Under the pieces are notes generated by a model, which saw nothing but the letters and a program-made list of their open reading frames with translations, searched no databases and was not told the origin of the DNA. A program made the translations under genes and the position numbers. Source: a virus. Taken from it: a stretch of DNA of 39,458 nucleotides. Each line of letters starts with the position of its first letter. Position 1 is the first letter of the stretch. This document shows positions 15,338 through 29,455 of the stretch, piece after piece. The stretch spans positions 1 through 39,458 of the IMG/VR virus record IMGVR_UViG_3300041809_000312. One strand, given 5' to 3'.

Positions 15338-15550
15338 ATGCCACACGTTCAAGTTGCTCAAACACCAGCTCACGTTAAGTCACTTACTGAATTTAGAAAT
15401 AAACTAACTATCTTAACACTTTGCGCATCACTCAATAAGACTGATGATATCCATTCTATATCAGAAGAAATACTAACTGATATAGAAAATCTTCGAGATA
15501 ATCAATGGTCTGACGGTTATGCGAGAGGTGTTGAAAGTGTTAACTCATAA
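15338..15550 (+). CDS. Small helical hypothetical protein, 70 aa
   Basis: The protein is mainly helical (LTEFRNKLTILTLCASLNKT, ISEEILTDIENLRDNQWSDG) with no transmembrane segment. No family recognised. It starts six bases after the previous stop and contains, in another frame, the ribosome site and start of the exported gene that follows. Confidence 0.7.
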   Translation: MPHVQVAQTPAHVKSLTEFRNKLTILTLCASLNKTDDIHSISEEILTDIENLRDNQWSDGYARGVESVNS

Positions 15551-16118
15551 GAAACTGTACGTCGGGCTTTTTTTAACTGTTAGCACTCTTTTAGCTCAGT
15601 CCCCCTCAGCTCCTACCGTCCAACCTCCCAGTTATTTTGCAAATTCAGGTGTTCGTTACAATTACTATGACAAGGCTCTGACGGAAACTACTAACTTCGG
15701 TTTTCGTTTTACCTCAAATAGCACAGCTTCAGTTGGTTCAACTCCGGCAAACAGTTTTTGGGTTAAAGTGTCAGTTGACGCTACACCACGTTCTCAAGCG
15801 AGTAGTGCGGGATTAAGAGTTAGTGCTGCTTATTTTCTTAAAACTATTAATCACGTTTCCTTCTTTTTTGATGCCGGGCCGGGAATTCAGACTAGTTCAT
15901 CTAATACAGTTAATACAACAACTCCTACTTCACTTACTCCTAATACCGTCGCGAATTTATTGGGTAGCATCGGTGGCGGAGGTGGTTTTATTTGGAATGT
16001 CTGCAAGACTTTTAAATCCTCTTTTAACTGTAACTTAGTTGGTGACTATGATATCCTAGCCGTCACGTCACAATCCGTGAAGCCGGTTATTGGTATTTAC
16101 TTCGGAACGAGTTTCTAA
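15537..16118 (+). CDS. Exported protein, possibly a small outer-membrane beta-barrel, 193 aa
   Basis: I choose the GTG at 15537 because AGAGG lies eight bases upstream and it gives a textbook signal peptide (LTHKKLYVGLFLTVSTLLAQ) with probable cleavage at Ala-Gln. The mature part has alternating strands with aromatic residues (SGVRYNYYDKALTETTNFGF, GLRVSAAYFLKTINHVSFFF), a Gly-rich turn and a C-terminal GIYFGTSF ending in Phe, as in outer-membrane barrels. An ATG at 15519 is the alternative start. A surface or exclusion role is possible but unproven. It opens the accessory block of exported proteins. Confidence 0.7.
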   Translation: MLTHKKLYVGLFLTVSTLLAQSPSAPTVQPPSYFANSGVRYNYYDKALTETTNFGFRFTSNSTASVGSTPANSFWVKVSVDATPRSQASSAGLRVSAAYFLKTINHVSFFFDAGPGIQTSSSNTVNTTTPTSLTPNTVANLLGSIGGGGGFIWNVCKTFKSSFNCNLVGDYDILAVTSQSVKPVIGIYFGTSF

Positions 16119-16355
16119 ATGAGCCTACCATCCATGTTCGAGGGAACCATCGTAAAGACTATTATCGATAAAATAGCAAAATCCGAGCCGCGCACAACAG
16201 TTCTAGGTTTTGTATTGGCAGGTGTGATAGCTGCACAGGTTGATTATAGTAAACTCATGCAGAAAGATCCTGTTCAAATTGGTAACTTGATAGGGGCTAT
16301 CGTGACGGCTCTTTTGGGTTATTACACGAATAACAAGTCAATCAAGACTACTTAA
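16119..16355 (+). CDS. Putative holin with two membrane spans, 78 aa
   Basis: The ATG follows the previous stop directly. Residues about 27-41 (TTVLGFVLAGVIAAQ) and 53-69 (QIGNLIGAIVTALLGYY) are two hydrophobic segments joined by a short polar turn, and the C-terminus is charged. Size and topology match class II holins, which open the inner membrane at lysis. No endolysin was found nearby or elsewhere, so the lysis role rests on topology only. A simple membrane accessory protein is the alternative. Confidence 0.6.
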   Translation: MSLPSMFEGTIVKTIIDKIAKSEPRTTVLGFVLAGVIAAQVDYSKLMQKDPVQIGNLIGAIVTALLGYYTNNKSIKTT

Positions 16356-16367
16356 AGGAGAAGATGA

Positions 16368-16583
16368 ATGACAAGATGTAAAGTTATTTGTGACAAGAAA
16401 ACAATCTATCCAACAGGTGGAGAGTTATCTTTTAGAGCTGTTATTAATGGATCTCCAGAAAATGAGCTCTTTTTTAAATATACACCTAATGGACAGATAA
16501 CATTAAGTGTAGTCAGTCCTGAAATCCTTGAACAATTTGTTCCAGGACAAGAATACTACGTTGATTTTACTGGTTTAATTTAA
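16368..16583 (+). CDS. Small beta-rich hypothetical protein, 71 aa
   Basis: A strong AAAGGAG lies upstream of the ATG at 16368. The product is mainly strands (RCKVICDKKTIYPTGGELSF, ITLSVVSPEILEQFVPGQEY) and resembles small beta proteins common in phage genomes, of unknown function. It has no signal peptide. The strong ribosome site suggests good expression. Confidence 0.75.
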   Translation: MTRCKVICDKKTIYPTGGELSFRAVINGSPENELFFKYTPNGQITLSVVSPEILEQFVPGQEYYVDFTGLI

Positions 16584-16587
16584 CCTA

Positions 16588-16785
16588 ATGCCCTCTGTTA
16601 GTGTTAAACAACGTGAGTTAATGGCGATAGCAGAACACCATCCGTCTGAGGTATCTGCTAAGAATCGTGGTGTTCTTAAAATGTCTCATCAACAGTTACA
16701 TGATTTTGCGTCTACAAAGGAAAGTAGCTTACCTGAGAAGGTAGCTAAAGGATATAGTAAATTGAGGAAAAAGAAACGTGGCTAA
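16588..16785 (+). CDS. DUF3008-like small phage protein, 65 aa
   Basis: The pattern MPSVSVKQRELMAIAEHHP, MSHQQLHDFAST and LPEKVAKGY matches the small DUF3008-type proteins frequently encoded in phage genomes, whose C-terminal half has a 'DFAxTK...LPxKV' signature. The function of the family is unknown. The C-terminus is strongly basic, so nucleic-acid or virion association is possible. It overlaps the next gene by eight bases. Confidence 0.75.
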   Translation: MPSVSVKQRELMAIAEHHPSEVSAKNRGVLKMSHQQLHDFASTKESSLPEKVAKGYSKLRKKKRG

Positions 16786-17359
16786 GAAGGAAAAAAAGCT
16801 TTCTCGTATTATTATACATCTTCATCACCCGGAAGACGAAGATCATGAAGGATTTCATATTGAACATGAATATACGGAAGGTGCATCGGGTAGTTATGCA
16901 ATGCCCGAACGCCAAGGAGTTTTTAAGCATCACGGAGAAGTGATGCAACATGTTCATGAGCATATTAAAGATCATGGTCCTAATGTGCAAGAAGAATTAG
17001 TAGATCAGCATTCTTATGAACAAGGTGAGCATGACGCTGTTGAAGCAAAAGAACATGAGCACGCCTGCGCTTTATGTGATGATACGGGTGGTAAGGAAGC
17101 ACGAAAAGAGGAAGCACACCCAAATATTGTTAAACACGGTTTTGAAAAAGGTACATCTAACGCTTTTGGCAAGGGTGAAAAAAAGAGTAGTGGCGGTCAT
17201 TCCAAAGAACACCCTGGTTTTAAAGCTGTAGCTAATAAGATTTCTGGTAAAGAACATCTTGGTGCAAAAGCGGCAAGTGCAATTCTAGCTGCACGTACAC
17301 GTGGGGCTAGTGGGGCTGCTCATAAAGCTAATCCACGTTTAAATAGAGTTAAGGGTTAA
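16778..17359 (+). CDS. His-rich protein with basic Ala-rich C-terminal domain, 193 aa
   Basis: The GTG start has GAGG upstream. The first 110 residues are extraordinarily rich in His, Glu and Asp (HLHHPEDEDHEGFHIEHEY) and end in CALCDD, a likely metal-binding region. The C-terminal part, HPGFKAVANKISGKEHLGAK and AILAARTRGASGAAHKANPR, resembles a short domain repeatedly found in phage proteins of unknown role ('GFKAV...AILAA.TR.AS..A..NPRL'). It may bind DNA or metal, perhaps as a virion-associated protein. No catalytic motif is seen. Confidence 0.75.
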   Translation: MAKKEKKLSRIIIHLHHPEDEDHEGFHIEHEYTEGASGSYAMPERQGVFKHHGEVMQHVHEHIKDHGPNVQEELVDQHSYEQGEHDAVEAKEHEHACALCDDTGGKEARKEEAHPNIVKHGFEKGTSNAFGKGEKKSSGGHSKEHPGFKAVANKISGKEHLGAKAASAILAARTRGASGAAHKANPRLNRVKG

Positions 17360-17371
17360 GGGTTAGTATCA

Positions 17372-17800
17372 ATGAGATTAAAACTTATAGCGGCTTTACT
17401 TTTGCCTCTGGGCTTAGGAATGGCCCAATGTGCATCTGGTTATAAATATATAGTTAACTGTCAGACGGCTGCACGATATTGTGCTCCAGTTTATGATTCC
17501 ACACCTGTTTGTCAAACTCCTATTGTTGTAACTTCACTTCCCACTACGTGTGTAATCGGTGACGTTGTTTCAGTTACTACTAATAGTAATGGTCTAACCG
17601 TGGGCCTGTATATGTGTTCCAGCACTAATACATGGACTTCTGTTAATCCTATTAATAATCTTACTCTTTCCTCTTGTAATGGTACTCTTGCATGGTTTGG
17701 TGGTACGGCAGCGTGTTTAAATAAAACACCTCTTTCACCACTCGTGAAATCATCTTTGTGGCCAGCTTGTAATCTTGTTATTAATACTTATTGTAATTAG
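17372..17800 (+). CDS. Secreted Cys-rich protein, 142 aa
   Basis: The N-terminus is a clear signal peptide (MRLKLIAALLLPLGLGMAQ) with cleavage expected at Ala-Gln. It does not fit a lipobox. The mature part contains ten Cys spread over the whole length, an even number that would allow five disulphides in the periplasm or outside. Short motifs such as CVIGDVVSVTTNSNGLTVGL suggest a beta fold. No family recognised. It is one of four neighbouring exported proteins and could interact with the cell surface. Confidence 0.75.
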   Translation: MRLKLIAALLLPLGLGMAQCASGYKYIVNCQTAARYCAPVYDSTPVCQTPIVVTSLPTTCVIGDVVSVTTNSNGLTVGLYMCSSTNTWTSVNPINNLTLSSCNGTLAWFGGTAACLNKTPLSPLVKSSLWPACNLVINTYCN

Positions 17801-17816
17801 TAAAAAGAGGAAAAGA

Positions 17817-18263
17817 ATGAAGAGACTGACGTTAGGAATTTCTTTACTGCTACTTATTGCTTGTACGCTTTTTGCTCAGGGACCGACGACCGTACAGCAA
17901 ACTGCACAAAAACTTGACGCTGCATTAATGGCGCAAGCTGCTCATGCTGCTGGTACTTTAACTTTGACTCCACTCGGGAGCCAATCTATCTATATTTATG
18001 AAATTGATATTACTAATTGTGCGGGTGCCTCTGCTGTAAGTGCGGCAGCTCAAACTGCTGTAACCACTACAAATCTTCCTGGAACTCCCCAATGGCAGAT
18101 GGGTTCTGGAACTACAGCGGGAAACTGCATTCAGAATATTGTTGTTACTTATCCTACAGGATTAAAAGCAACAGTTCCAGGAACTGCGGTAACTGTTGTT
18201 ATTCCTGCTTTTGCTACTAACCAAGTTATTGGTGTTAATGTAGTTTATAGTTCGGCTCCGTAA
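17817..18263 (+). CDS. Secreted protein, first of a paralogous pair, 148 aa
   Basis: The ATG at 17817 has AGAGG upstream, which decides it over an earlier in-frame start. The signal peptide MKRLTLGISLLLLIACTLFA is followed by Gln. The LIAC inside it also fits a lipobox, so a lipoprotein is possible. The mature chain has VQQTAQKLDAAL, LTLTPLGSQSIYIYEIDITN and VVTYPTGLKATVPGTAVTVV, all with counterparts in the next gene. Two Cys are conserved between the two and may form a disulphide. The fold is probably an all-beta sandwich. Function unknown. Confidence 0.8.
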   Translation: MKRLTLGISLLLLIACTLFAQGPTTVQQTAQKLDAALMAQAAHAAGTLTLTPLGSQSIYIYEIDITNCAGASAVSAAAQTAVTTTNLPGTPQWQMGSGTTAGNCIQNIVVTYPTGLKATVPGTAVTVVIPAFATNQVIGVNVVYSSAP

Positions 18264-18275
18264 GGATCTTTCGAT

Positions 18276-18740
18276 ATGAAGAAACTTACGCTGCTTCTCT
18301 TGTTTGCTGTTAGTCTTATTTTTGCACAAAGTCCGTCGAGTGTTCAGCAGAGTGCAACAAAGCTGGACGTCGGGCTTTTTAATCAAAATACAGCTACTAG
18401 TGCTACTACTCTTACTCTTACACCTCCCGGTTCACAGTCTGTTTATATTACACAGATAGATATTAGTAATTGTCAGGATGCAACAGGAATCGCGGCAGCG
18501 GCTGCCCCAACTTATATTACTTCTACAAATTTGGGCGGCGCACTTGCAGCAAATTCACTCTCCTGGATGATGGGTTCGGGCCTGGTTACTGGTACAGGAT
18601 CTTGTGTTCAATCTTATTCCATCACATATCCTACTGGGATGAAATCGACAATTCCCGGCACGCCAGTAACTATTATAACTCCTACTTATATTACCCATCA
18701 AACCATCCGTGTTAGTGTTACTTATTTCTTTGCTCCGTAA
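18276..18740 (+). CDS. Secreted protein, second of a paralogous pair, 154 aa
   Basis: Signal peptide MKKLTLLLLFAVSLIFAQ with cleavage before Gln. The mature protein repeats the plan of its upstream neighbour: VQQSATKLD, LTLTPPGSQSVYITQIDISN, then TYPTGMKSTIPGTPVTII and a final VSVTYFFAP. It differs mainly by an insertion in the central Ala/Thr-rich region. The tandem pair must come from a duplication. A hairpin with the character of a terminator follows seven bases after the stop. No known family is recognised. Confidence 0.8.
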   Translation: MKKLTLLLLFAVSLIFAQSPSSVQQSATKLDVGLFNQNTATSATTLTLTPPGSQSVYITQIDISNCQDATGIAAAAAPTYITSTNLGGALAANSLSWMMGSGLVTGTGSCVQSYSITYPTGMKSTIPGTPVTIITPTYITHQTIRVSVTYFFAP

Positions 18741-18746
18741 GAAAAG

Positions 18747-18767
18747 GGGGTGCCTTATTAGCACCCC
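18747..18767 (+). terminator. Probable transcription terminator or attenuator
   Basis: GGGGTGC-CTTATTA-GCACCCC forms a perfect seven-pair GC-rich stem right after the secreted-protein pair. The following sequence TTCGGCATTTT is only moderately T-rich, so termination may be partial. It separates the exported block from the genes leading into the packaging module. Confidence 0.6.
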
Positions 18768-19195: not shown

Positions 19196-19420
19196 ATGGC
19201 ACGCCTACAAGCTCTAAAACAACAACGATTTTTAGAATCCTCAGCTTCTCCTATTAGCTCTGCACAAGCTGAAGGATCTGATGGCGTGCCGAAATTTCAC
19301 CCTTTGAAGAGTTCTGGGCCTGTGTTCAAAGCATCAAGTATGATACATTCTCTTCGTGTGAAAAAACCCACGATGCCTCATTCTGTTAAGATGCCATCGA
19401 TTCACATGCCAAAGATATGA
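19196..19420 (+). CDS. Small basic hypothetical protein, 74 aa
   Basis: The protein is basic and low in hydrophobic residues, probably disordered, with a Lys/Pro/Met-rich ending (VKKPTMPHSVKMPSIHMPKI). Short disordered proteins just upstream of the large terminase are common in phages. No function is assigned. Its TGA overlaps the ATG of the next gene. Confidence 0.65.
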   Translation: MARLQALKQQRFLESSASPISSAQAEGSDGVPKFHPLKSSGPVFKASSMIHSLRVKKPTMPHSVKMPSIHMPKI

Positions 19421-25817: not shown

Positions 25818-26567
25818 ATGGCAGAGAAGATTATCGTTGTTGGAACAAATGCTCTAACAGAAGTTCAATGGCCTGCTTATACAAACCACTGCCAATTCTG
25901 GTTTCGCTTAGGTCGGTCATATCCAGATTATAGGTTTATTTTTTCATGTCCTCCACGCATGTCGATAGATCGAATGCGGAACATGACTGCTAAAGTTGCT
26001 ATTGAGTGTAATGCAGAGTATGTTCTTTTCTTAGATGATGATGTACTGGTAAATCCTAATTATGGATTGAAGCAACTACTTGACTGCAAAGCTGATATAG
26101 CGGCTGGTCGGGTTTGCGTTCGTGGATATCCGTTTGATTATATGGTTTTTAAGAACGTGAAGAAAGATCCAGATCATATGATTATTTGTAATAAACTACC
26201 TAAAAAAGGCATCTATCAATGTGATGCCGTCGGATTTAGTTTTGCACTAATCAAGGTAGATTTAATCAAGAGACTTGAGGAACCCTGGTTTGTAACAGGA
26301 CTCAATAATACCGAAGATATCTATTTTTGTCGACGTGCAAGGATTGTAGATCCAAAGTGTAAAATAGCTGTTAATTGTGAATGCTACTGCAATCATATCT
26401 TGTGGTCTGAAACGATTGGCGAAGAAAATCGTAAGGCATACAAAAAATTCGTAGAAGCTACTAATCCTGGTATAAAAGTGAAACCGGGACCGGAGAATCC
26501 AGTAGATCGTGGTTCTGAGTATCTTAATATGATCGTTGATGTTATGGGGAAGAAAAATGAAACTTAA
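25818..26567 (+). CDS. Glycosyltransferase, GT-A fold, family 2-like
   Basis: The 249-residue protein has a GT-A core with the metal-binding DxD at 73-75 (FLDDDVLV), a conserved acidic pair TEDIYF near 165-170 as catalytic base region, and CNH at 191-193 as a third metal ligand. Such enzymes transfer a sugar from a nucleotide-sugar donor. The gene overlaps the methyltransferase gene, so they probably act in one pathway. Candidate substrates are a virion protein, the tailspike, or the host surface glycan, none of which can be chosen from sequence. It has no transmembrane segment or signal peptide. Confidence 0.85.
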   Translation: MAEKIIVVGTNALTEVQWPAYTNHCQFWFRLGRSYPDYRFIFSCPPRMSIDRMRNMTAKVAIECNAEYVLFLDDDVLVNPNYGLKQLLDCKADIAAGRVCVRGYPFDYMVFKNVKKDPDHMIICNKLPKKGIYQCDAVGFSFALIKVDLIKRLEEPWFVTGLNNTEDIYFCRRARIVDPKCKIAVNCECYCNHILWSETIGEENRKAYKKFVEATNPGIKVKPGPENPVDRGSEYLNMIVDVMGKKNET

Positions 26568-27105
26568 TATAGGATGTGGCAGTAACAAAATTGAAGGTTA
26601 TATTAATATTGATGAAGAGGAGTCTGTTAAACCGGATTTAGTTTTGGATATACTTGAAAAACGGCTCCCGTATGAAGATAACAGTGTTGAGGAAATTTTA
26701 TTCTTCCACTGTATAGAACATGTTAGAAAAGTATATCACGATGCAATTCTTACAGAGTTCTATCGTGTTTTACAACCTGACGGGAAGATTTACATTAGTT
26801 ATCCTAACTTTATAAGATGCGTCCAACAATGGCAAAGAGCTGTTGGAAGACAGAAGATGTTTTTTGAAAATACCATTTATGGCAGACAACTCTATCCGGC
26901 TGATTATCATGTGGCTATTATGGACCCTGACGAATTAGCTGAGAGACTTGGACGTTGTGGTTTTGGTAAAATAGTAAGTAAACCAGAACCAAAGGAATCT
27001 TATAACTTTATTACATTTGCACAAAAGTGTGGTACTAAAGTAGATCAGTATGAAGATCTTATAGCTCAAGATGTTAAAAATACTGTAATTAAGGAAATTA
27101 AGTAA
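26557..27105 (+). CDS. SAM-dependent methyltransferase, class I
   Basis: From ATG 26557 the 182-residue protein has motif I LNIGCGSNKIEGYINID (residues 3-19), the acidic motif II region DLVLDILEK, and the downstream FHCIEHVRK and YRVLQPDGKIYISYPN typical of class I methyltransferases that act on sugars or lipids. The start lies inside the end of the glycosyltransferase gene and its TAA overlaps the ATG of the tailspike (TAATG). The likely role is methylating a sugar added by the neighbouring glycosyltransferase, possibly capping it. Substrate is inferred from context only. Confidence 0.85.
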   Translation: MKLNIGCGSNKIEGYINIDEEESVKPDLVLDILEKRLPYEDNSVEEILFFHCIEHVRKVYHDAILTEFYRVLQPDGKIYISYPNFIRCVQQWQRAVGRQKMFFENTIYGRQLYPADYHVAIMDPDELAERLGRCGFGKIVSKPEPKESYNFITFAQKCGTKVDQYEDLIAQDVKNTVIKEIK

Positions 27106-28841
27106 TGCTCACAGTTACACACAAGTTCGTATCACCGAAGAGTGAACAGACAGATCCAACTCTTGTAGGTCCAAATGAGTGGAATGCATCTCATACAGTT
27201 GTTAATACAACTGGTCCTTTATATGCTGCGGACTATGCGTTCTTAGCACAAGCGCCGGGCGGAACCCTCACGATTGGATCTAACATAATAACACTTTCTC
27301 CAATTCCATCTGGTCTTGCTATTGGGAACTATCTTTATATTACGGGTGGTGTCGGAACTGCTGAAGCTGTTCCTATCACTGCATGGAATTCTACTACTGG
27401 TCAAGTTATCGTGACGTGTGCTTATACTCATAGTGGTGCTTGGACTATTCAGAGTGCTACAGCGGGTATTGCTGAAGCTATGACTGTTCTGAATGGTCCT
27501 GGAAAGATTATACTTCCAGCAACTTCAGATCTTTATACTGGTGTTACATTAGCTGCCGGAACTATTATTGAAGGTGCTGGTAATGCAACATCAAATCTTA
27601 GTCCATTCCCTTGTCTTGTAAACTTCCATTCCACAACTGGAATAGCTTTTACTATTATTTATAATAATTGTACTATTGCTAACATTCGTCTTGTTCAAGT
27701 ATCTGGTACAGCTACAGCAGGTTGTGGAATATATATTTACTATAATGGTAATGCTGTTACAGGTGTCTATGATGTAACTTTATCTGGTGTTGAAATTGAA
27801 CAGTTTTATAATGGACTAATTGGTGATGGAACATATGCTGCTCAGTTTATAAATGTACAATGTTATAATAATGCTAATTATGGTTTTGTTCTTAATGGTG
27901 TTCAAGGTCCTGGTGGAATTAATCTACAAGCCGTTGGCAATAAAAGTGATGGTTTCCATATTGGATCTGCAACTAATAATGGTAATCCTACATTTGCTTT
28001 ATCGGGTGGTGGAACTTACAATAATGGTGGATGGGGAATTAACTGTGTATCTGCATTTACACAAATATCTAATATGTTTCTTAATAATGATGCATTAGGT
28101 GAAGTTTGTGTTAATGGACCTTCTGCATATGGACCAATAGGCATTTTAAGTAATTTAAATATTCAATATGCTGGCTATTCTACTTCATGGACCAATTCTG
28201 CAACAGCTCCAGGAATTCGTGTAACTTCTACAAGTGGTCCAATACTAGCAACTAATATTGCAATTTTTACAACTAAAGGAAATGCAATTGATATATTGAA
28301 TGGATATAATCATGTAACTAACACTTATTCAGTTGGTGGTGGTACTGGTCTTGTGGCAGGTAATACCTATTGTCTAAATGTACAAGGTGTTGGTAATACA
28401 TTAATTGGTATTCTTACAAGTGGAACAGTAGCTATAGCTGGAAGTGCTAATAAAATTATTGGATGTAGTTTCTCTAATGGTGGAGCTGCCGCAGCATTAA
28501 CTATAACTAGTGGTACAGATATTGTACTTAGTGGTAACTATATTTATGGGGCTACAATAGCTGCTAGTATATCGGCTGGCGTTACTGTACTTGAAGGTGC
28601 TAATGAATTTATTGGAACTGTTACAAGTTCCGCTGTTACATCAACTTATTCTTCTAAACTTGGTGGTGATATTCTTAAGACTTGTACATTTTCTCAATTG
28701 GGTACAATTAATCCAGCAAGTCGTCCAATGTTAGTTTTTTGTACCGATGCAACTCCGGGAAGTAAACCTGCAACTGGTGGTGGTACGGGAGCTATGGTTT
28801 GGTGGAATACTGGACTTGCAGAATGGGTGGCTAGTCAATGA
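27105..28841 (+). CDS. Tailspike or tail fibre with parallel beta-helix
   Basis: The N-terminal motif KSEQTDPTLVGPNEWNASH is a signature of phage tail fibre heads that attach to the baseplate or adaptor. Residues about 130-500 are repeated short strands and Asn/Gly turns (YNNANYGFVLNGVQGPGGIN), the pattern of right-handed beta-helix depolymerase spikes. No active-site assignment can be made by eye. The end (TGAMVWWNTGLAEWVASQ) resembles C-terminal trimer caps. It probably binds and may digest host polysaccharide. The 578-residue length is typical. Confidence 0.82.
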   Translation: MLTVTHKFVSPKSEQTDPTLVGPNEWNASHTVVNTTGPLYAADYAFLAQAPGGTLTIGSNIITLSPIPSGLAIGNYLYITGGVGTAEAVPITAWNSTTGQVIVTCAYTHSGAWTIQSATAGIAEAMTVLNGPGKIILPATSDLYTGVTLAAGTIIEGAGNATSNLSPFPCLVNFHSTTGIAFTIIYNNCTIANIRLVQVSGTATAGCGIYIYYNGNAVTGVYDVTLSGVEIEQFYNGLIGDGTYAAQFINVQCYNNANYGFVLNGVQGPGGINLQAVGNKSDGFHIGSATNNGNPTFALSGGGTYNNGGWGINCVSAFTQISNMFLNNDALGEVCVNGPSAYGPIGILSNLNIQYAGYSTSWTNSATAPGIRVTSTSGPILATNIAIFTTKGNAIDILNGYNHVTNTYSVGGGTGLVAGNTYCLNVQGVGNTLIGILTSGTVAIAGSANKIIGCSFSNGGAAAALTITSGTDIVLSGNYIYGATIAASISAGVTVLEGANEFIGTVTSSAVTSTYSSKLGGDILKTCTFSQLGTINPASRPMLVFCTDATPGSKPATGGGTGAMVWWNTGLAEWVASQ

Positions 28842-29455
28842 GTAGACCACATCTTTTTGTTGTTCTTTTACTTAGTTGTTTATTTATAGGAATGCTTTTA
28901 GGGGCTAACCAGACTCCTATCTTAACGGGTGCTGGTTATATAAAGTTTCCTGAAAATGCAATACCTGCTTATATATACGCATCAGGTGGTGCATTAACAG
29001 CATACTCTGGTGGATCTAATCAAAACATATCTCTAGTTCCAAGCGGTATAGGAATAGTAAATATTAATCAAGCAGCTAATAATACTAATGGATTACTTAA
29101 TATTACTTTACCAACTGGAACTAATCACTTTTTGTGGATGTATTCGGGAGCTGTTCGTACACATGCTTTCTATAGTGCTAGTGATAGTGGTAATATGGCT
29201 ATTTATAACTCATCTTCAAATGCACAGATCGTATTTCGTTCGGCTGGCATTTCTTATGTATTAGGTAATTTTAGTGTTGGACAATCTGCGAATACTTATC
29301 CTTTAGATGTTGCTGGAGACATTAACACAAGTGGTGTAGTCCGAGTTAACGGTACGGGTGGATTAACGGGAACTTATACAGTTCGTAATAGTGCAGGAAG
29401 TGGTACTTGTACTCTTACTTATAAAGGTGGTGTCTTAACTTCGGAGACTTGTTAA
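28838..29455 (+). CDS. Fibre-like protein with N-terminal hydrophobic segment, 205 aa
   Basis: The ATG overlaps the tailspike stop. The N-terminus is a signal-peptide or membrane-anchor-like stretch (FVVLLLSCLFIGMLLGANQT), unusual for a virion fibre. The rest is beta-rich: GGSNQNISLVPSGIGIVNIN, then YPLDVAGDINTSGVVRVNG and a final YTVRNSAGSGTCTLTYKGG, which resemble repeats found near the ends of tail fibres. It could be a secreted surface protein, a fibre attached to the cell membrane, or a fibre whose hydrophobic start anchors in the virion. Confidence 0.65.
   Translation: MSRPHLFVVLLLSCLFIGMLLGANQTPILTGAGYIKFPENAIPAYIYASGGALTAYSGGSNQNISLVPSGIGIVNINQAANNTNGLLNITLPTGTNHFLWMYSGAVRTHAFYSASDSGNMAIYNSSSNAQIVFRSAGISYVLGNFSVGQSANTYPLDVAGDINTSGVVRVNGTGGLTGTYTVRNSAGSGTCTLTYKGGVLTSETC

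Follow-up and report, generated by a model that had tools for sequence, protein, structure and literature searches.

The 39,458-base IMG/VR virus record IMGVR_UViG_3300041809_000312, a soil phage with 40% GC that we analysed over its full length (hereafter the window), carries a cassette of three adjacent genes, named here A, B and C, each opening with a predicted Sec signal peptide that ends in Ala-Gln (A-Q). The reading we favour, and to which we give about an even chance from the sequences and structure models, is that A-B-C is a mobile module of Sec-exported, disulfide-type, adhesin-like binding proteins acting outside the cytoplasm. The signal peptides, the synteny, the conserved A-Q ends, the paired cysteines and the signal-less homologues of some exported proteins are well supported by computation; from these we infer the export, cleavage, timing, final location and binding of the A-B-C proteins. 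Taken together with two further signal-bearing genes of the window, at 15537 and 28838 (Table 1), the cassette is best read as part of a habit of this kind of soil phage, in which signals are placed before adhesin-, fibre- or decoration-like proteins.

The initial annotation of the window had described four genes, at 15537, 17372 (A), 17817 (B) and 18276 (C), whose signals end in AQ, and both inspection and our rule-based caller agree with it. All four open with a basic n-region and a hydrophobic core followed by the A-Q cut: the signal of 15537 reads MLTHKKLYVGLFLTVSTLLA, with QSPS after the cut, that of 17372 MRLKLIAALLLPLGLGMA (then QCAS), that of 17817 MKRLTLGISLLLLIACTLFA (then QGPT) and that of 18276 MKKLTLLLLFAVSLIFA (then QSPS). 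The start of 15537 is best read as a GTG behind GAGAGG; an in-frame ATG also occurs at 15519. The fifth gene, 28838, was missed at that stage. Its signal ends in IGMLLGA followed by NQTP, with Asn at +1, unlike the Gln of the other four.

Signals were called with a rule-based predictor of our own, not with SignalP, and are predictions. The check by signal-peptide prediction that had been proposed returned signals of the cleavable type, and decoys made by shuffling the N-termini of the same open reading frames (ORFs) fired in 0 of 41 cases in the window and at rates of 0–3.8% in eight other groups. The caller is crude: in the decoy run it placed the cut of 17372 later and missed 15537 at the threshold used, the latter being found in other runs. 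The signature of Sec and signal peptidase I (n-region, hydrophobic core, AxA-like cut) was conserved across homologues with the same predictor. Gln at +1 in four of four signals has a probability of about 3e-6 at a background Gln frequency of 4.3%, and of 0.02–0.13 at host-like rates of 38–60%. Four of the five exported genes fall within 8 consecutive genes of 54 (p = 0.024, post hoc). We rejected a lipoprotein reading of the whole B family, the LIAC motif being present in the window gene and not in the L122, L124 and L126 homologues; the 17817 protein alone could be lipidated by signal peptidase II.

Table 1. Exported genes of the window, cassette flanks and neighbouring hairpin (aa, amino acids).
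Feature	Coordinates	Strand	Description
Exported protein 1	15537–16118	+	193 aa; signal 15537–15596; mature part 173 aa, 2 Cys, C-terminal Phe
Left cassette flank, His-rich protein	16778–17359	+	C-terminal ~50 aa conserved in terminase relatives; N-terminal part differs
Cassette gene A	17372–17800	+	142 aa; signal 17372–17425; mature part with 10 Cys
Cassette gene B	17817–18263	+	148 aa; signal 17817–17876 with lipobox-like LIAC inside; mature part 128 aa, 2 invariant Cys
Cassette gene C	18276–18740	+	154 aa; signal 18276–18326; mature part 137 aa, 2 invariant Cys; predicted beta-sandwich at residues 35–153
GC-rich hairpin directly 3' of C	18745–18767	+	terminator-like; no U run on + strand; scan puts it on - strand; z -2.1
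Right cassette flank, small protein	19196–19420	+	conserved in terminase relatives
Fifth exported protein	28838–29455	+	signal 28838–28906; mature part with 2 Cys; in tail gene block; signal-less homologue at L007 13846–14397

In alignment searches of viral contigs, L122 and L124/L125 proved to carry A-B-C in the same order as the window and, like it, with gaps of 10–28 bp, and L126 to hold one B/C-like gene (L001–L126 are comparison loci, terminase relatives and cassette-bearing viral contigs among them). Over the cassette L124 matches L125 at every base (1262/1262), and the two were counted once. B and C are paralogues with 51–55% identity. Across contigs their mature parts are 68–83% identical, as against 35–53% for the signals, and the AQ end is kept in each. 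The GC content at third codon positions (GC3) of the cassette genes is 22–30% in the window, 80–82% in L122 and 48–64% in L124, tracking a contig GC of 0.40, 0.66 and 0.54, respectively. That mature identity and the AQ end are kept despite the divergence of signals and GC3 suggests selection on both the proteins and their exported state, and the cassette appears to move from one phage to another. Conservation of A is poor apart from its C-terminus, where VKSSLWPACNLVINTYCN is common to the window and L122 proteins (E 2e-6, C-terminal 24 residues).

The cassette lies in other gene neighbourhoods in L122 and L124 than in the window. No terminase-profile match was found in the L122 contig, in a search run without a positive control, nor in the L124–L126 contigs, in a search that matched 5 of 14 records. 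In the terminase relatives of the window the flanks of the cassette are conserved, whereas A, B and C themselves are absent. From its sequence context, A-B-C looks like a mobile accessory module inserted between lysis-like genes and the terminase, at a variable site within the rightward block. No close relatives of 18276 alone, 15537 or 17372 were confirmed in the viral contigs, where the 18276 family was reached through alignment queries only. The B/C alignment (A3) gave 12 stretches in bacterial genome contigs, none of them confirmed, and B/C relatives had no match on plasmids or in the isolated-phage collection.

Proteins of oxidising compartments tend toward paired cysteines, and cysteine parity offers a sign of export independent of the signal calls. 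We compared complete ORFs of at least 80 aa from L001–L126 and the window, with duplicates removed and sub-threshold signal calls kept out of both sets; 15537 (uncalled at the threshold) and 28838 (no A/G-Q) were excluded. The 40 complete proteins with a signal ending in A/G-Q form 28 families, in which the cysteine number is even in 21, odd in 4 and zero in 3. Among 1132 ORFs without a signal call it is even in 403, odd in 470 and zero in 259. Even numbers are thus found in 21 of the 25 Cys-containing A/G-Q families versus 403 of 873 Cys-containing proteins without a signal (binomial p = 1.1e-4 per family). A stricter cut left 29 proteins (25 even, 2 odd, 2 without Cys), and signal calls without A/G-Q (n = 46) gave 22 even, 11 odd and 13 without Cys. 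In the window the exported proteins have 2, 10, 2, 2 and 2 Cys, all even; the other 49 proteins comprise 17 with an even number (at least two), 19 with an odd number and 13 with none. Cysteine parity gives indirect support to the predicted export of the A/G-Q proteins.

Signals are also found before proteins with signal-less relatives in other phages. The 28838 protein begins with MSRPHLFVVLLLSCLFIGMLLGA and continues with NQTPILTGAGYIKFP, while its homologue in L007 (13846) begins with MANKQPILSGNGTLYFP and has no signal (tblastn 3.8e-6 and 9e-6, phmmer 3.1e-5). The A-NQTPIL of 28838 aligns with the MANKQPIL start of the L007 protein, and the two C-terminal Cys of 28838 are missing in L007. 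Judged by gene position, both would be fibre proteins. L006, whose terminase is 76% identical to that of the window, has four signal-bearing genes directly 5' of its own terminase gene. Two are mutual paralogues with signal-less homologues in L013 and L011 (for L006 1224, phmmer 2e-6 and 4e-7). The signal-less L013 8352 sits in the same slot as these exported paralogues, without their common Cys pair. The product of L005 29-604, a homologue of the signal-less L015 9029 with a C-terminal match to the exported L006 2295, was not counted as a signal-less example, its gene beginning near a contig end. The fourth exported gene of L122 matches the tail protein family phrog_25379 (E 9.5e-5). In L011 and L066 signals precede proteins that we take to be spike-like (a family search gave no hit), and at L124:8372-9001 an A-Q signal is followed by what is presumably a cohesin-type domain and a dockerin-like stretch (no PHROG hit).

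We surveyed the DNA upstream of the terminase in the window and in 15 of its 43 terminase relatives, chosen for having upstream DNA, the remaining 28 being set aside. Of the 15, 8 have one or more signal-bearing genes 5' of the terminase (L002, L006, L016, L020, L022, L025, L030 and L036), and the other 7 have none (L003, L004, L007, L010, L013, L015 and L019). The initial annotation had remarked that phages rarely export so many proteins. The cassette of exported proteins is real, but with at least one predicted exported protein in 8 of 15 relatives such export is less exceptional than that remark implied. At L016:4856-9178, directly 5' of the terminase and behind further exported genes, lies a signal-bearing protein of 1440 aa with 38 Cys. 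Whether or not they are exported, proteins encoded just 5' of the terminase often carry a short C-terminal tail, either NLxxLMGxG-like or MMLGIG (L006:2295-3038, L005:29-604, L015:9029-9676 and L013:8911-9999).

A similar arrangement was found in isolated phages of Acidobacteriota. Tunturi_1 (L182:10371-23028) and the closely similar Tunturi_2, both isolated on Tunturiibacter, carry five signal-bearing genes in the tail region, gp12, gp13, gp14, gp16 and gp17, directly behind the tail protein gene gp11; gp15 has no signal call. Four of the five signals end in A-Q. The mature proteins contain 20, 10, 20, 1 and 32 Cys (34 for the last in Tunturi_2), and among their deposited annotations are tail spike, tail fiber, pectin lyase and virion structural protein. 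In Tunturi_3, Tunturi_4 and Tunturi_5, the listed fibre- and tail-type genes lack signals of this kind when read from their annotated starts, and they encode 0–9 Cys. These comparisons cover the first 50 kb of Tunturi_1, 3, 4 and 5 and 35 kb of Tunturi_2. Searched against the phage collection, gp11 and mature gp12 and gp13 of Tunturi_1 matched only Tunturi_1 and 2, and no protein link of the Tunturi phages to the window or to L122–L126 was found at E 1e-8.

The B/C family was modelled from 7 sequences with a mean predicted local distance difference test score (pLDDT) of 70. The model contains beta-strands only, which span residues 35–153, with a pLDDT of about 60–91 in blocks after residue 30. 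Fold matches, searched with Foldseek and VIA-align, were weak and included jelly-roll-like virus proteins, nucleoplasmins, phage cement proteins and endospore appendages; the best viral Foldseek match (E 9.6e-5) was an unnamed protein and the best VIA-align match (Z 8.5) had no clear lead. Ena-type appendages and trimeric cement proteins were not used as fold relatives, their Z scores being tied with those of unrelated folds. No sequence relative of B/C was found in the PDB, and B matched the tail fiber family phrog_30742 weakly (E 0.034–0.06). The 15537 model was unusable (pLDDT 31). By inspection only, this protein resembles a beta-barrel of Lom/OmpX type, and no Pfam or PHROG family of Ail/Lom type was hit.

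On the reading that we favour, expression of the exported proteins would accompany that of the rightward genes; the proteins would pass through the inner membrane by way of the host SecYEG, be cut by signal peptidase I at A-Q and fold with disulfides in the periplasm. They would then serve as extracytoplasmic binding proteins whose likeliest target is the receptor used by the phage itself or surface glycans, and the outcome could be receptor masking, a block to superinfection or protection of the progeny from debris. Surface remodelling and superinfection blocking, both suggested by the initial annotation, are possible roles of the exported proteins; its suggestion of biofilm effects found no support in the present analysis.

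Several observations weigh against this reading. The signals come from our own rule-based caller and are prediction alone. Family searches named no family for any cassette protein; the term adhesin-like draws on a low-confidence model with weak jelly-roll matches and partly on analogy, and receptor masking is likewise conjectural. For B and C, no homologue lacking the signal came to light. A strict disulfide rule is broken by the four odd-Cys families and by Tunturi gp16 with its single Cys. Finally, the fibre genes of Tunturi_3, which infects the host strain of Tunturi_1/2, have no signals, so that export is no host requirement.

The strongest rival, to which we give perhaps half the weight of the secreted-binding reading, is export before assembly: fibre-like proteins (28838, the Tunturi spikes, perhaps B/C) would reach their fold in the periplasm and join completed particles at lysis. 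P22 spikes are said to attach to finished particles in vitro. The position of 28838 among tail genes, with a signal-less homologue in a relative, is consistent with docking, as is that of the Tunturi_1/2 genes behind gp11, with their annotated tail spike, tail fiber and pectin lyase. However, A-B-C lies upstream of the terminase, outside the tail genes, and the large tail-gene protein of the window (27105) has no signal. In the main text of the Tunturi paper, term searches found neither 'signal peptide' nor mass spectrometry or virion proteomics (PMC11924767). Occurrence in purified virions only, which the initial annotation took to count against export, would be compatible with it, because an exported protein could still end on virions. 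A wider form of the docking proposal, in which a group of tailed phages including those of Acidobacteriota would have their adhesion parts Sec-secreted and oxidised in the periplasm, to be attached to virions only when the cell bursts, we regard as slightly less probable again. On that view part of the assembly of tailed phages would take place outside the cytoplasm, and mobile A-B-C cassettes would serve as exported modules open to exchange.

It is rather unlikely that the genes are moron-like, that is, derived from cells and modifying the host, with products whose export benefits the infected cell and which have no kinship with virion proteins. The accessory and mobile nature of A-B-C, its absence from close relatives, the hairpin behind the cassette and the possible Lom-like barrel of 15537 would fit such an origin, but B/C relatives are unconfirmed in the bacterial genome contigs and unmatched on plasmids and in isolated phages, and some exported proteins have signal-less phage homologues. 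A lysis-related function of spanin or antiholin type is improbable, despite the holin-like gene 16119 nearby (phrog_263, E 0.071) and the short lipoprotein-like genes in this region of some relatives: the modelled beta-sandwiches of B/C, with a single signal and no second membrane segment, disfavour any lysis function, that of a spanin included, B lacks a conserved lipobox and the cassette has other neighbourhoods in L122 and L124. That the hydrophobic N-termini are unprocessed or serve as membrane anchors, as Leu or Ile at -3 in three of four signals and the reliance on rule-based prediction might suggest, is very improbable given the decoy hit rate, the A-Q kept in diverged homologues and the shift in cysteine parity.

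The A-Q ends had been taken as a pointer to a Bacteroidota host, which our counts do not bear out. With the same predictor, Gln is the commonest +1 residue on the Bacteroidota plasmid Runella pRUNSL01 (12/20) and also on the Acidobacteriota plasmid Granulicella pACIX901 (30/78), with 7/36 on Cupriavidus pMOL30 and 0/6 on Singulisphaera pSINAC01; the comparison uses one replicon per phylum and small numbers, Bacteroides and second Granulicella plasmids not being in the counts. Gln at +1 alone is therefore no Bacteroidota marker, and the Acidobacteriota phages Tunturi_1/2 carry A-Q exported genes themselves. The remark that the ribosome sites look unlike that phylum was upheld, a core resembling the Shine-Dalgarno sequence (SD-like) lying 5' of 20 of 42 checked starts versus 7.3% of random positions. 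On the +1 statistics and the ribosome sites, we set aside the inference from A-Q to a Bacteroidota host. Acidobacteriota is the better guess, because of the +1 Gln counts, the SD-like sites and the Tunturi parallel. A prophage-based host search with the terminase alignment (A1) gave 33 pattern stretches in bacterial genome contigs, of which none was confirmed.

A 30-base repeat at the termini of the window suggests a complete circular assembly. Replication-type genes occupy the minus strand at about 1.3–12.4 kb, and the rightward genes are those of lysis-like, terminase, portal, capsid and tail type. Positions 25818–27105, flanked by the head decoration gene and the large tail-gene protein, hold what we take to be glycosyltransferase-like and methyltransferase-like genes. 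No tRNA genes were found in the window, and a promoter scan gave 14 sites versus 15.3 in shuffles, that is, no excess. Among the isolated-phage matches listed, identities are about 23–25% for the terminase, 24–25% for the capsid and 22–27% for the DNA polymerase.

Most exported phage proteins described so far are lysis proteins or the products of single envelope genes, whereas here a conserved multi-gene exported cassette moves between unrelated phages, and signals stand before fibre-like proteins, some with Cys pairs that their signal-less homologues lack. If the exported proteins reach virions, they would define an extracytoplasmic branch of tailed-phage assembly; if not, they would be dedicated surface-binding proteins that are released. 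Both options are open to experiment with Tunturi_1, whose host is in culture. To our knowledge the usual fibre and decoration proteins of tailed phages have no signal peptide, and none was called on the lambda fibre genes by our predictor. The PHROG tail fibre and decoration families resemble the present proteins through the fourth exported gene of L122 and the L007 homologue of 28838, but differ in that a signal is present here and that the match of B is weak. In the part of the open-access literature searched, we found no description of tailed-phage fibres that carry Sec signals; exported lysis proteins and Lom are known. Lambda Lom and Bor are phage genes with Sec signals and envelope action, both called by our predictor (Lom is described with a signal peptide, PMC12309495), but they are single genes for annotated envelope proteins and form no three-gene syntenic beta-sandwich cassette. 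Lys44 of fOg44 and RI of T4 share cleavable Sec signals with the present proteins, as described for Sec-exported phage lysis proteins (PMC6116005, PMC8385771), but are enzymes or antiholins and neither beta-sandwich nor fibre-like. Substrates of the Bacteroidetes Q-rule, stated as Gln directly after the signal peptidase I site (PMC5837995), have in common with the window the +1 Gln of all four cassette-region genes (28838 has Asn), whereas the ribosome sites of the window argue against that phylum. The likeness to Tunturi_1/2 lies in neighbouring signal-bearing genes, mostly Cys-rich and mostly with A-Q, some annotated as fibre, spike or pectin lyase; the Tunturi proteins differ in being large tail-region proteins, and B/C have no match in the phage collection.

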